This document shows, piece by piece, positions 14,033 through 18,604 of a stretch of DNA of 64,000 bases. Origin of the DNA: Allokutzneria sp. A3M-2-11 16. Its GTDB lineage: Bacteria > Actinomycetota > Actinomycetes > Mycobacteriales > Pseudonocardiaceae. The DNA lies in NCBI RefSeq assembly GCF_024213555.1, contig NZ_JANAVO010000001.1:186001-250000 (forward strand). Reading direction: 5' to 3'. The position numbers and the translations under genes were made by a program. Each line of letters starts with the position of its first letter. The first letter of the stretch is position 1. The notes below the pieces were generated by a model. It made no database searches, was not told where the DNA came from, and saw nothing but the letters and a program-made list of their open reading frames with translations.

Positions 14033-14194
14033 GCCGGTCTTCAAGCACACCCAACCCCCACCACCGGGAGTACGTACCCAATGTGGCATTTGTTTCGTCA
14101 GACGTAACGAAAGCCACATTGGGTACGCAAGCGTTCGGGGTTGGGGGCGGTTAGCGATCGTTGGCGGAGGGGTTCGTGGGACTTGAAGACCGGC
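14033..14194. repeat. GTCTTCAAG palindromic element, complete copy B
   Basis: Outer arms GCCGGTCTTCAAG (14033-14045) and CTTGAAGACCGGC (14182-14194) are exact complements. Inside lie CCAACCCCCACC and GGGGTTGGGGGCGGTTA, as in the other copies. The loop holds a second nested hairpin: GTACCCAATGTGGC at 14074-14087 with its exact complement at 14113-14126, plus inner TTTCGT/ACGAAA. The right arm contains the last codons and stop of the ACT-domain gene (14151). Confidence 0.85.
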
Positions 14195-14593: not shown

Positions 14594-15346
14594 TCAGCCC
14601 TCGGCGACCAGCGGGCTGGAGGCGACCTCGGTGCCGTCCGGCAGCGAGGAGATCTCGAAGTCGCTGAACACGTTCTCCGCGGCCTTCTGCAGGTGCCGCA
14701 GGCATTCCACGGCGAGCGCGCGGATCTCCACGTCGGCGTGCTCGGTGGCGCGCATCGCGATGAAGTGCCGCCAGGCCCGGTAGTTGCCGGTCACCACGAT
14801 GCGGGTCTCGGTGGCGTTGGGCAGGATCGCGCGGGCGGCCTGGCGAGCCTGCTTGCGGCGCAGGGTCGCGTTCGAGACGTCGGCGAACTTCTTCTCCAGC
14901 CCGGCGAGCAGCTCGTTGTACGCCGCCACGCTGGCCTCGGCCGCCTTGGCGAACATCTCGTGCAGCTCGGGGTCGTCGGCGATGACGTCCGGCTCGACCA
15001 TGGCCGCGTCCGACTCGGGCACGTAGCGCTGCGACAGCTGCGAGTACGAGAAGTGCCGGTGCCGGATCAGCTCGTGGGTGAGCGAGCGGGACATGCCGGT
15101 CAGGTAGAAGCTCACCGACCCGTGCTCCAGCACGGAGAGGTGACCCACCTCCAGGATGTGCCGCAGGTACCCGGCGTTGGTCGCGGTCCTGGGGTTGGGC
15201 TTGCGCCAGGACTGGTAGCACGCCCGCCCGGCGAACTCCGCCAGCGCCTGGCCGCCGTCGGCGTCGGTGGACCAGGGCACCTCGGCGGGCGGGAAGAACT
15301 CCGTCTTGGCGATGAGTTGCACCTTCGGGGACACCGTCTGCGCCAT
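14594..15346 (-). CDS. thyX: FAD-dependent thymidylate synthase ThyX
   Basis: Makes dTMP from dUMP with methylene-tetrahydrofolate, FAD and NADPH. The 250-residue protein carries the ThyX signature [14 protein letters not shown] at 95-108 (RHRX7S) and the downstream [19 protein letters not shown] substrate region. It diverges from the ribbon-helix-helix gene, and the 119-bp shared promoter region contains the TGRCGYCA array, so that regulator may also affect thyX. It is followed closely by the ACT-domain gene. Confidence 0.95.
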
Positions 15347-15414: not shown

Positions 15415-15466
15415 TGGCGTCACCGCTTCCTTGACTGACGTCACAAGTGACGCCATAGTGACGTCA
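15415..15466. promoter_or_regulatory. Operator-like array of TGRCGYCA octamers
   Basis: Four 8-base palindrome-like sites lie in 52 bp: TGGCGTCA (15415), TGACGTCA (15436), TGACGCCA (15448) and TGACGTCA (15459), the last overlapping the ATG of the ribbon-helix-helix gene. Start-to-start spacings are 21, 12 and 11 bases, about one or two helical turns. Tandem sites at helical spacing are typical of Arc/CopG-type repressors, so autoregulation is the likely meaning. Confidence 0.65.
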
Positions 15467-16044
15467 TGGACCTCACGCCCTACATCGCCGCACTTCGCGA
15501 GGATCTCGCCACCGCGGCGTCGGCCGGGGACGAGCAGACCAGGCGGACCGCGGCCGTGCTCTCCGCCGCGCTGGAGCCCGCGGCCCGGCTCGCCATCATG
15601 AACGCGCTGTCCGACCTCGCCGCCCAGGTCACCGCCGCCCAGGACGAGCACGTCGTCGAGGTCCGGCTGCGCGGCCGCGACGTCGAGGTGGTGACCAGCC
15701 CGGTCCACGCCCCGCGCCCGAGGCCCGAGCCCAAGGCCACCCCGGAGCCCGAGCCCTCGGCGGAGGCCGAGGAGGAACCGGAGGAGCCGAAGGACGAGAC
15801 ACCGCTGAAATCCGCCTTCGACGACGCCACCGGCAACATCAGCCGGGTCACCCTACGGATGGTCGACGAGATCAAGTCCAAGGCCGAGAAGGCCGCCGCG
15901 TCGCAGGGCGTGTCGCTGAACAGCTGGATGGGCTACGCGGTGCGCAGCGCGCTGCAGAACCGGGCCAACAACCAGCAGAAGGCCCGGCGCGAGCAGGAAC
16001 AGCCGGAGACCGGCGAACGCATCCGCGGCTGGGTTCGTGGCTGA
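15466..16044 (+). CDS. Ribbon-helix-helix DNA-binding protein, likely autoregulator
   Basis: A 192-residue protein in three parts. The N-terminal helical region (1-75) includes RLAIMNALSDLAAQV. An acidic, Pro/Glu-rich linker follows (about 80-112). The C-terminal ribbon-helix-helix (about 126-164) has the strand SRVTLRM, helix VDEIKSKAEKAAASQG, a turn at VSLNSW and a second helix, then a basic tail. It resembles the Arc/HicB C-terminal DNA-binding fold. The DUF4097 gene follows 19 bases downstream and is probably co-transcribed. The TGRCGYCA array overlaps its start. The targets are inferred, not shown. Confidence 0.7.
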   Translation: MDLTPYIAALREDLATAASAGDEQTRRTAAVLSAALEPAARLAIMNALSDLAAQVTAAQDEHVVEVRLRGRDVEVVTSPVHAPRPRPEPKATPEPEPSAEAEEEPEEPKDETPLKSAFDDATGNISRVTLRMVDEIKSKAEKAAASQGVSLNSWMGYAVRSALQNRANNQQKARREQEQPETGERIRGWVRG

Positions 16045-16063
16045 GGCCAGGGGGAGAGACGAG

Positions 16064-16984
16064 ATGAACGAGTCCACCACCAGCACCGAGCACGGCGTCG
16101 TCCGCCAGCACGAGTTCGTCACCAACCGGCCCGCCGAGGTCGAGGTGCACGTCAACGCGGGCCGGGTCGACGTCGAGCTGGTCGGCGACCACGGCGCCTC
16201 GGTGACCGTGCGCCGCCTGACCGAGGGCGGGGACACCCTGGTCAACGGCCTGTCCGGGCTCTTCAACTGGGTCAACTCGCAGTTCGTCGGCGGCGAGCAG
16301 GACGCGCCGACCGACGAGGCGGTGAAGCAGACCCGGGTCGAGCAGACCGGCAACCGGCTCGTGGTGCGCGGCCCGCAGGGCATGCCGCTGCGAGTGGTGC
16401 CGCTGTCCATCGTGGTGCGCGTGCCCAGGGGCTCCCACGTGAACGTCACCACCGGCTCCGCCGCCGTGAACCTGACCGGCGCGACCGGCGCCGCCGCCGG
16501 GCGGATCGACCTGACCACCTCCAGCGGTGACGTCACCGTGGACCGCACCGACGGCAGCACCAACGTCCAGACCGGCACCGGCACCGTCCGCCTCGGCCCC
16601 GTGCACGGCACGCTCCGGGCGAAGAGCGGCAACGGCGCGCTGGAGATCTCCGCCGTCCACGGCCCCAGCAAGCTCGTCACCACCGGCGGCGACGTGTGGC
16701 TCGGCGCGGTGCAGCACGACGTCGAGGTCCGCACCGGCAGCGGCGACCTCACCGTGGCCGACGCCGCTTCCGGCCGCGTCCACCTCGCCAGCGGCTCCGG
16801 CTCGCTCCGAATCGGTGTGCGCCAAGGCATCGTGGCCGAGCTCGACCTGCTGTCGGTCTCCGGCGAGGCACGCAGCGAGCTGCCCGTGTTCGAGGAACGC
16901 CAGTCCGGCTGGGACAACCCCGCGCTGCGCATCGAGGGCCGCACCGCCTCCGGCAACGTCCTCGTCACCACCTCGGTCAGCTAG
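16064..16984 (+). CDS. DUF4097-type beta-repeat protein
   Basis: A 306-residue protein without signal peptide or membrane segment. After an N-terminal beta sandwich (about 20-70), it has a run of Thr/Ser/Gly repeats of the form TxSGxVxV (TTSSGDVTVDR, TGTGTVRLG, SGNGALEIS, TTGGDVWLG, TGSGDLTV, SGSGSLRI) that forms a right-handed beta-helix or beta-roll, as in DUF4097 proteins. The ATG at 16064 has GGGGAGAG upstream. Pairing with the ribbon-helix-helix gene suggests a two-gene unit. The role is unknown; family members often accompany envelope-stress regulators. Confidence 0.75.
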   Translation: MNESTTSTEHGVVRQHEFVTNRPAEVEVHVNAGRVDVELVGDHGASVTVRRLTEGGDTLVNGLSGLFNWVNSQFVGGEQDAPTDEAVKQTRVEQTGNRLVVRGPQGMPLRVVPLSIVVRVPRGSHVNVTTGSAAVNLTGATGAAAGRIDLTTSSGDVTVDRTDGSTNVQTGTGTVRLGPVHGTLRAKSGNGALEISAVHGPSKLVTTGGDVWLGAVQHDVEVRTGSGDLTVADAASGRVHLASGSGSLRIGVRQGIVAELDLLSVSGEARSELPVFEERQSGWDNPALRIEGRTASGNVLVTTSVS

Positions 16985-17095: not shown

Positions 17096-18604
17096 ATGCG
17101 TGGCGTGCGTCGAACGGACCCGCTCACGCAGCGGCAGGTAGAGGTCCTGCAATGGATCGCTGATGGTTGCCAGGACGGCGTCATGGGCGACCACACCCAC
17201 AAGCTGACCGCCCGGGCGCTGGAGGGTCGGCGGCTTGTGAAGATCAGCAAGGGAAAGGGGACGTGGTCGGCGACGGTAACCACGGCTGGGAGGTACTACC
17301 TCGATCACGGGTCGTTCCCGTCACGTCTCGATGCGGCGAACTCAAAACCTCGTCGCCAGCCAGTTGACCGCAGTTCTGCTCCTCGCACCCGCATAGGGAC
17401 CAACCCTCGTGAGGCGGCGCCCGCCTCAGCTCCGCGAGCGGGCAAGCCGCGAAAGCTCTCGCCGACAGAGCAGCTCGTGGCGGACGTCGTCGCGGCCGGA
17501 GGTTCGTTGCGGGAACCGAGAGACACCAGGAGCAAGGGGTGGCGCGGGGTAGACCAGCTCGTTCGAAATGCGAACCGGCATGGAAAGACACCGCCTGGCA
17601 AGCGTTTGGCGCACGACGTCGTCCGCGAGGGTTCGCACTGGTCCGCGCCGTCATTTGACTTGTTCACCCTGGAAGACGGTCCAGCGGGCATGGACGCCCA
17701 GCTCATGCCGGTGCTAGTTCCGGATGAGGTCAAGCGTTACCACCCGGCTGTGTCCGCGCTGCGGAAAGCCAAGCTTCTCGAGCTTGGATCGACCGTCCTA
17801 CCCCGCGCAGTGCGCATCTTGCATGCGATCGCTACCGAAGCCGAACAGCGCGGCTTCTCAGTCAAGGAACATCTGTCAAAGACCACCGGCCGTCAAACCG
17901 GAGCGTCGAAAACATGGCACTTGCTCCTCACCAGCGGACACGAGACTGTGCCGCTGCGCATCGAAGAGGAGACCGACCGGGTCGAACACGTCCCGACTCC
18001 CCACGAACGCAAGGAACAGCAACGTCATTCGTGGATGCGTATCCCCACGCATGACCATGTAGCCAGCGGCCGACTGCGGATCGAGATCGGCGGCCAGTCA
18101 CAGCTGGACCGCAAGGCCAATTGGGCCGACAGGGCTTCCTGGAGCCTGGAGGAGAAGCTGCCAGAACTGCTGCGAGAGATCAGCGTGCGTGCTGATGAAC
18201 TACGACTGCGCCGCGAGGCGAAGGCGCGGGCGGAGGTGGAGCATCAGCAGGCGGTTGAACGCGAGCAGGAACGGGCTCGTGCCCGCGCTGCCGAGGCGCA
18301 CCGCAGGGAGGTCTTGGAACAGCAGCTCACCAGTTGGCGAGCCGCCAAGGAGCTTCGGACCTACGCGGTGGCGGTCGCGGCCGGGATTGCGGCTGCTGAT
18401 GCGGCCGACCAGGAATCCAGCGAGGCGATCGGACAAGCGCGTCAATGGTTGGCCTGGATCAACAACCGAGCCGACCACCTGGACCCGACCAAGAGGCTTG
18501 CCGTCTGGCTGGAGCCTCCCGAGTTGCCGTACTACGAGCTGCAGAAGTTCATGAATCGCGTTCCGGAGACAGTCGAGATGCGCTACCAGCCGGAGCAGTA
18601 CTGA
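17096..18604 (+). CDS. Unrecognised 502-aa wHTH/coiled-coil protein
   Basis: Not assigned to a named family. Residues 10-75 resemble a winged helix (LTQRQVEVLQWIADGC, then ALEGRRLVKI, then TWSATVTTAGRYYLDHG). A basic Pro/Arg-rich linker follows, with a second possible helical DNA-binding segment (LSPTEQLVADVVAAGGSL) and a conserved-looking middle (SWMRIPTHDHVASGRLRIEI). The segment from about residue 350 to 440 is a charged coiled coil rich in Arg, Glu and Ala. Codon use is visibly less GC-biased than in the neighbours. The start is uncertain: ATG at 17096, or TTG at 17027; neither has a clear ribosome site. Similar frames are seen as hypothetical proteins in actinobacteria. Confidence 0.6.
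   Translation: MRGVRRTDPLTQRQVEVLQWIADGCQDGVMGDHTHKLTARALEGRRLVKISKGKGTWSATVTTAGRYYLDHGSFPSRLDAANSKPRRQPVDRSSAPRTRIGTNPREAAPASAPRAGKPRKLSPTEQLVADVVAAGGSLREPRDTRSKGWRGVDQLVRNANRHGKTPPGKRLAHDVVREGSHWSAPSFDLFTLEDGPAGMDAQLMPVLVPDEVKRYHPAVSALRKAKLLELGSTVLPRAVRILHAIATEAEQRGFSVKEHLSKTTGRQTGASKTWHLLLTSGHETVPLRIEEETDRVEHVPTPHERKEQQRHSWMRIPTHDHVASGRLRIEIGGQSQLDRKANWADRASWSLEEKLPELLREISVRADELRLRREAKARAEVEHQQAVEREQERARARAAEAHRREVLEQQLTSWRAAKELRTYAVAVAAGIAAADAADQESSEAIGQARQWLAWINNRADHLDPTKRLAVWLEPPELPYYELQKFMNRVPETVEMRYQPEQY

Follow-up and report, generated by a model that had tools for sequence, protein, structure and literature searches.

The ribbon-helix-helix (RHH) repressor MetJ binds palindromic 8-bp boxes in tandem arrays, one box per RHH dimer, and the met boxes (AGACGTCT) adjoin one another directly, at 8-bp steps. 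Many toxin-antitoxin pairs place the regulator gene ahead of its partner and are controlled through a self-operator, and toxin-antitoxin loci have a patchy distribution. In the RHH repressor Arc, residues Gln9, Asn11 and Arg13 contact operator bases (PMC12645479). In Actinobacteria, an operon of RHH, toastrack and ABC transporter genes is in print, and the main text of that work argues that toastrack domains are intracellular, sub-membrane and linked to envelope stress (Ravi et al., 2024, PMC11237479).

We analyzed a 64,000-nucleotide stretch of the Allokutzneria sp. A3M-2-11 16 genome (the window), in which an array of palindromic octamers lies at the start of an RHH gene that is followed by a DUF4097 (toastrack) gene. 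Our main reading, to which we assign a probability of roughly 80%, is that the RHH operon would be autorepressed through these octamers. The features concerned are as follows.

14594-15346, minus strand: thyX (TIGR02170, 1.2e-58), a divergent conserved neighbour, outside the regulatory unit on present evidence
15415-15422, strand not applicable: operator octamer O1, TGGCGTCA, -51 register, 5' of the -35 box
15431-15436, plus strand: -35-like box TTGACT; across 47 promoters the majority consensus here reads CTTG
15436-15443, strand not applicable: operator octamer O2, TGACGTCA, -30 register, covering the final base of the -35 box
15448-15455, strand not applicable: operator octamer O3, TGACGCCA, -18 register, covering bases 1-2 of the -10 box
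15454-15459, plus strand: -10-like box CATAGT, 17 bp past the -35 box and 6 bp ahead of ATG 15466
15459-15466, strand not applicable: operator octamer O4, TGACGTCA, -7 register, covering the end of the -10 box
15466-16044, plus strand: predicted RHH repressor gene, ATG start, 192 aa, Pfam HicB; its product comprises an N-terminal domain (about residues 1-79), a linker, the RHH region (about 127-166) and a tail, according to a sequence alignment and a model
15844-15858, plus strand: codons of the predicted DNA-binding strand, R127-V-T129-L-R131; T129 tracks operator class
16027-16041, plus strand: GWVRG, C-terminal tail motif of the RHH protein, candidate docking peptide
16064-16984, plus strand: DUF4097/toastrack beta-solenoid protein, ATG start, 306 aa, PF13349 at 3.7e-14

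A preliminary description of this DNA had reported four TGRCGYCA octamers overlapping the RHH start, in the region shared with thyX, and their positions are confirmed. The steps from O1 to O4 are 21, 12 and 11. O1 stands two helical turns upstream, and O4 also reaches across the presumed transcription start onto the A of the RHH ATG; the shared region is a divergent intergenic region of 119 bp. Single octamers are commonplace, since the whole window holds 12 TGRCGYCA matches against 6.86 expected. The cluster exceeds chance: four octamers fall within 52 bp, against a simulated maximum of two per 60 bp (in 41 of 1500 order-1 simulated windows). Elsewhere in the window, an inverted-repeat element (ACCCAATGTGGC...GCCACATTGGGT; 14050-14150) lies between two minus-strand genes. 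It is an abundant palindromic repeat with 77 matches in the same genome, corresponding to about 40 places because many matches were counted on both strands.

A predicted sigma-70-type promoter underlies the octamers, with the A of the RHH start codon as its expected start. The consensus over 47 different Pseudonocardiaceae promoters, in which gaps are few and some rows are without individual boxes, is nCTTGnnTGACGTCAnnnnTGACGTCATAGTGGTGTCATG, with CTTG, CATAGT and ATG spaced at canonical distances. Since the A of ATG 15466 lies at the canonical distance from the -10 box, the RHH-operon mRNA is probably leaderless, as judged from promoter geometry.

Octamers are also found in orthologous promoters, which upholds them as real and conserved, although the allowed motif there, TGRYRYCA, is wider than the TGRCGYCA originally given. 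Among 69 non-redundant Pseudonocardiaceae upstream regions (less than 80% alike), TGRYRYCA occupies the -7 register in 68, -18/-19 in 57, -29 to -31 in 45 and -49 to -53 in 36, and the mean number of octamers per region is 3.25, against 0.029 in mononucleotide shuffles. An RHH relative occurs in all 120 Pseudonocardiaceae genomes (E <= 0.001), with best matches of merely about 1e-11 in two of them (G068 and G103). In G068, thyX is also missing from the 480-contig assembly; G103 has thyX, and octamers were not found within 3.2 kb around it. At 110 Pseudonocardiaceae loci, DUF4097 lies downstream in 110 and thyX is divergent in 108, the sequence of the other two (L023, L093), whose contigs are equally long, stopping 183 bp 5' of the RHH start. 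More widely, RHH relatives occur in 161 of 249 genomes of the order and 42 of 296 of the phylum (E <= 0.001), or 47 of 396 at E <= 1e-8. Many distant relatives carry octamers at about -29, -18 and -7 ahead of the ATG, and certain deep lineages have none. The co-occurrence of RHH and DUF4097 genes, universal among the 110 family loci, is not invariable outside the family. Together with the promoter geometry and the agreement of operator type with a residue of the regulator, described below, this conservation strongly supports the earlier proposal of an autoregulated pair, and we regard the locus as a real, deeply conserved module of predicted autorepression.

The regulator itself bears an RHH sequence signature: at E <= 1, Pfam HicB is matched by 29 of 29 members, TacA1 by 27 and Arc by 7, and R127, R131, G148, S150 and N152 are invariant in the 29-row alignment. 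In the window protein, the HicB match scores 22 bits against a cut-off of 21 and spans residues 129-157 only, and the N-terminal domain matches no Pfam family above cut-off. The monomer model is weak (pLDDT 67.6), with the DNA-binding strand region modelled as helix, and a Foldseek search with it returned no match at E <= 0.001. From its sequence, we assign the protein to the RHH superfamily as a predicted DNA binder and repressor of the Arc/Mnt type.

The following gene encodes a DUF4097 protein, as had been described. Its most plausible start is ATG 16064, which has a purine-rich stretch 5' of it, over the mechanical ORF start at 16037. The structural model is a confident beta-solenoid (pLDDT 90.5) that matched 18 chains in Foldseek at E <= 0.001, with TM scores of 0.19-0.49 on the query. 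These chains are structural-genomics beta-helix proteins, mostly putative adhesins, along with a lipid-binding protein, one chain titled putative pectinase and one secretion-system chain. They include 4qrk (E 1.4e-6, TM just 0.19) and 4opw, both toastrack examples in the main text of Ravi et al. (PMC11237479), and the PF13349 match together with the modelled right-handed beta-helix fold places the protein among the toastracks. No signal peptide or membrane helix was apparent by eye. Residues 59-71 (the GLFNWVNSQF region; 16238-16276) form a helix inserted in the solenoid, a low-confidence stretch of the model that might possibly contact a membrane or a partner. The tblastn match of the same genome's paralogue to DUF4097 starts at residue 80, and those of some relatives from residue 18.

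The HicB match in all 29 members and the arrangement as a two-gene unit, regulator first, with a self-operator, would fit a type II toxin-antitoxin system in which a HicB-like RHH antitoxin is paired with a DUF4097 toxin. We consider this very unlikely, given that the HicB match of the window protein clears the cut-off by a single bit, that the partner is a beta-solenoid with the fold matches listed above, and that the pair holds a fixed chromosomal place and is near-universal in the family. Moreover, no HicA was found genome-wide at E <= 0.001 (the control rings in 7 of 14), nor any PADLOC match at E <= 1. The toxin-antitoxin reading was set aside on the DUF4097 fold matches, the PADLOC result and the absence of HicA.

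The RHH and DUF4097 genes look like one operon, predicted to be transcribed as a single mRNA. Of 81 loci, 29 have a gap of 5 bp between RHH stop and DUF4097 start and nine a gap of -4 bp, and the 20 commonest gaps (74 loci) range from -4 to 86, plus one of 185; short gaps are favoured in these counts because the DUF4097 starts were picked by closeness. In 192 of 204 loci, DUF4097 is accompanied by an RHH protein with a GW-like tail, and 6 loci have neither; DUF4097 was found without the tail in 4 and the tail without DUF4097 in 2. Of the six with neither, four (L154, L156, L210, L214) form a single clade with ample downstream sequence, while the other two have less than 450 bp downstream. All four clade members carry octamer arrays, and three are from a genus without thyX in the genomes searched. 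The toastrack gene is thus dispensable for array retention, since these four well-covered loci keep their arrays without it. The losses come from one clade, which makes the tail as a docking site a lead and not a result.

A link between the regulator and the octamers is residue 129 of the predicted DNA-binding strand. The strand has the form R-x-[T/N/S/A]-x-R, and neither arginine varies in a 40-row alignment. We compared this residue with the operators in 144 proteins, reduced at 80% identity. The 95 Thr proteins (83 with an octamer) have a TGAC half-site in 258 of 265 octamers. In the 36 Asn proteins (35 with an octamer), TGGC occurs in 93 of 103 octamers and TGAC in 14. The 11 Ser proteins (7 with an octamer) are mixed, with TGGC in 17, TGAC in 12 and TGAT in 11 of 24 octamers, and in the two Ala proteins 3 of 3 octamers are TGATATCA (TGAT). 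These Ala proteins (L059, L061) are divergent, and their pairing with TGATATCA constitutes a third operator type. No octamer stands at the assigned start in 12 of the 95 Thr proteins, one of the 36 Asn proteins and four of the 11 Ser proteins, among them certain deep lineages. In the Thr class, the strong half-site tends to face outward, being left-only in 23 of 38 octamers at -51 and right-only in 48 of 69 at -7.

Among Thr and Asn proteins with a clear majority half-site, 110 of 113 obey the rule (exceptions L114, L317 and L288). The residue-129 column also tops the mutual information with operator class among 120 proteins of clear class, at 0.676 bits against 0.578 for the next, in a ranking that covers well-filled columns and in which other columns that separate paralogue clades correlate with operator class as well. 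In the genomes examined that have both paralogues, each carries the expected type in 10 of 11 (exception G544). Thr/Asn changes on the tree number three, giving one independent pair on supported branches and three on all branches; with so few independent switches, the Thr/Asn rule lies beyond a formal tree test. Residue 129 is associated with octamer class (Thr with TGAC, Asn with TGGC, Ala with TGAT), and clade history is a possible alternative cause. A separate, structural argument is that the printed alignment pairs residue 129 with Asn8 of Mnt, and that an equal-length match range pairs it with position 11 of Arc, one of the base-contacting residues named above.

Clade history also provides an argument for the octamers serving another regulator, with the RHH protein unrelated to them, as membership of a paralogue clade could by itself determine both the operator class and the RHH residue. 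We find this barely credible: octamer letters differ between RHH paralogues of the same genome in those 10 of 11 genomes, they track a residue of the putative DNA-contacting strand in the product of the adjacent gene, and in the genomes scanned the strong array occurs solely at RHH starts.

Under autorepression, the RHH protein would act as an Arc/Mnt-type repressor of its own operon, one dimer per palindromic TGRYRYCA octamer, inserting a two-stranded ribbon into the major groove. The invariant R127 and R131 would read the constant TG...CA ends, and residue 129 would select bases three and four (Thr for TGAC, Asn for TGGC, Ala for TGAT). With the octamers spaced by one or two helical turns, the dimers may fill the array cooperatively, and the filled array would mask the -35 box, the -10 box and the start point of the leaderless promoter, switching off the RHH-toastrack mRNA. 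The toastrack protein would be co-made with the repressor and most likely be cytoplasmic or lie beneath the membrane. Perhaps through the conserved GW tail, it could modulate the repressor and so place the level of the pair under the control of a signal from the envelope; we put this step forward tentatively, at rather less than even odds.

We assessed the range of the regulator with an array sequence model (R1), which scored the best 150 first-look candidates per genome; scattered single sites are outside its reach. In the genome of the window, R1 found one strong site, the RHH promoter in the window (46 bits, E 4.2e-11). The next best were the same array on the opposite strand (E 0.058), the paralogue promoter (0.125) and the locus L233 (0.129). 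L233 (E 0.13), with one exact and one imperfect octamer ahead of a possible ATG, was judged to be at chance level as a further target. In 30 of 30 chosen genomes, the best site falls in the array at an RHH start, as placed by coordinates in 28 and by reading of the locus in G043 (the paralogue promoter) and G609; the match in G605 is 9 bp off register. Every match with E < 0.01 in the 30 genomes lies in an RHH-promoter array, one of them being the G547 array on the opposite strand. Weaker matches (E 0.012-0.08) comprise opposite-strand arrays, the G034 paralogue promoter and six sites elsewhere, against about three expected by chance. A wider regulon was set aside for lack of a second strong site among the candidates scored in the window's own genome.

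These results bear on whether the RHH protein acts chiefly on distant genes or in organizing the chromosome, in which case the array would be a mere feedback site. Genus g48 lends this some support, having kept the RHH gene and array without DUF4097 or thyX, for which reason the protein must have another role there. On the other side stand the single strong array in the window's own genome, the absence of any site under E 0.01 outside RHH promoters in the 30 genomes, and the small surplus of weak sites elsewhere over chance. Overall, we judge the distant-gene reading unlikely, and autorepression remains our preferred interpretation.

The preliminary description had further suggested a link to dTMP synthesis, as would follow if the array were a shared operator giving the RHH protein control of thyX as well as of its own operon. 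The divergent thyX is conserved beside the RHH gene in the family, as counted above, and also adjoins it at nine loci outside Pseudonocardiaceae (L214-L221, L223). In the window, a possible thyX -35 box (TTGGAG, minus strand 15411-15406, by eye) lies 3 bp away from O1, a weak sign of a local effect, and at Lentzea loci thyX and the RHH gene are too close together for their promoters not to overlap. The placement of the octamers argues the other way. Across 128 distinct intergenic regions, their density is 92 per kb in the 20 bp nearest the RHH start and 1 per kb at 80-100 bp, independent of region length, with zero octamers beyond 100 bp. Among the 53 regions that are 140 bp or longer, not one has an octamer in the 65 bp adjacent to thyX (some thyX starts being approximate); with just 0.47 expected there, this denotes a lack of enrichment and not depletion on the thyX side. 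In addition, all four genomes searched in genus g48 lack thyX and retain the array (octamers were read in three genomes, and the array model matches in all four, the RHH gene of the fourth having been read as well). At two loci of this genus, the neighbour of the RHH gene was named by eye as dapA-like. Paralogue modules without an adjacent thyX carry the same array. The array therefore tracks the RHH start rather than thyX. RHH control of thyX is not supported, and as a general mechanism we reject it on the octamer positions and on arrays kept without thyX; the dTMP connection likewise lacks support, and we hold a shared operator to be quite improbable. PMC13118837 mentions thyX once, for a different cluster.

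The same genome encodes a second RHH-DUF4097 pair (L002/L003), whose RHH protein is 36% identical to that of the window. No thyX lies within 9 kb around this pair, and kdp-like genes, named by eye, are adjacent. Its promoter has the same layout, with the octamers TGGTGCCA, TGGCGCCA, TGGCGCCA and TGGTGTCA, mostly of the form TGGYGCCA. We counted ABC genes at loci with at least 3.5 kb downstream (tblastn at 1e-20; Pfam checked on one example). Asn-class loci have an ABC ATPase downstream in 24 of 29, and an ATPase with a permease in 20 of 29. At loci without thyX, the ATPase was found in 2 of 14 of the Thr class and 1 of 2 of the Ser class. ABC genes were found at none of nine thyX-linked loci (8 Thr, 1 Ser), all outside Pseudonocardiaceae; the thyX-linked loci of that family had sequence too short for the count. 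In the window, the ORF after DUF4097 (17117-18604, plus strand, 495 aa) matches no ABC family, and no Pfam or NCBIfam family above cut-off.

These findings suggest that HicB-family matches of this kind mark a conserved, self-controlled module that is probably not a toxin system. If the residue-operator pattern holds, it would provide a simple system for the study of DNA choice by RHH proteins and of how duplicated repressors are kept separate, as well as a handle on the role of cytoplasmic toastrack proteins. The fullest version of the proposal, an actinobacterial family of self-repressing RHH-toastrack pairs whose paralogues are insulated by the half-site choice of residue 129 and which signal from the envelope through toastrack and GW tail, is speculative, at well under even odds. 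In a literature search that largely excluded subscription papers and supplements, we found no precedent for the operators, for the branch linked to thyX or for the association of residue with operator.

Compared with known systems, the module is like the RHH-toastrack-ABC operon in having an RHH regulator gene beside a toastrack (DUF4097) gene, whereas the window member adjoins thyX and has no neighbouring ABC gene; operators, a leaderless promoter and the residue pattern were not found in the main-text description of that operon (PMC11237479). HicAB shares with it the Pfam HicB match over the RHH part, but the genome has 0 HicA matches (with the control result given above) and the partner is DUF4097. 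The met box AGACGTCT is similar to TGACGTCA, while the window's steps of 11, 12 and 21 differ from the 8-bp steps of met boxes, and MetJ was absent among the 18 matches of the RHH-region alignment search. There is also a likeness to Mnt and Arc of phage P22: the best alignment of the RHH region is with Mnt (E 0.0029), and there is a weak one with Arc (E 0.035-0.056), with a shared R/H/Q-x-[polar]-x-R strand and short palindromic boxes in tandem at the protein's own promoter. Unlike Arc and Mnt, the window protein is extended by an N-terminal domain (about 79 residues) and by a GW tail, and its module, whose promoter looks leaderless and usually carries three to five boxes, is chromosomal, vertically kept and accompanied by a toastrack partner.
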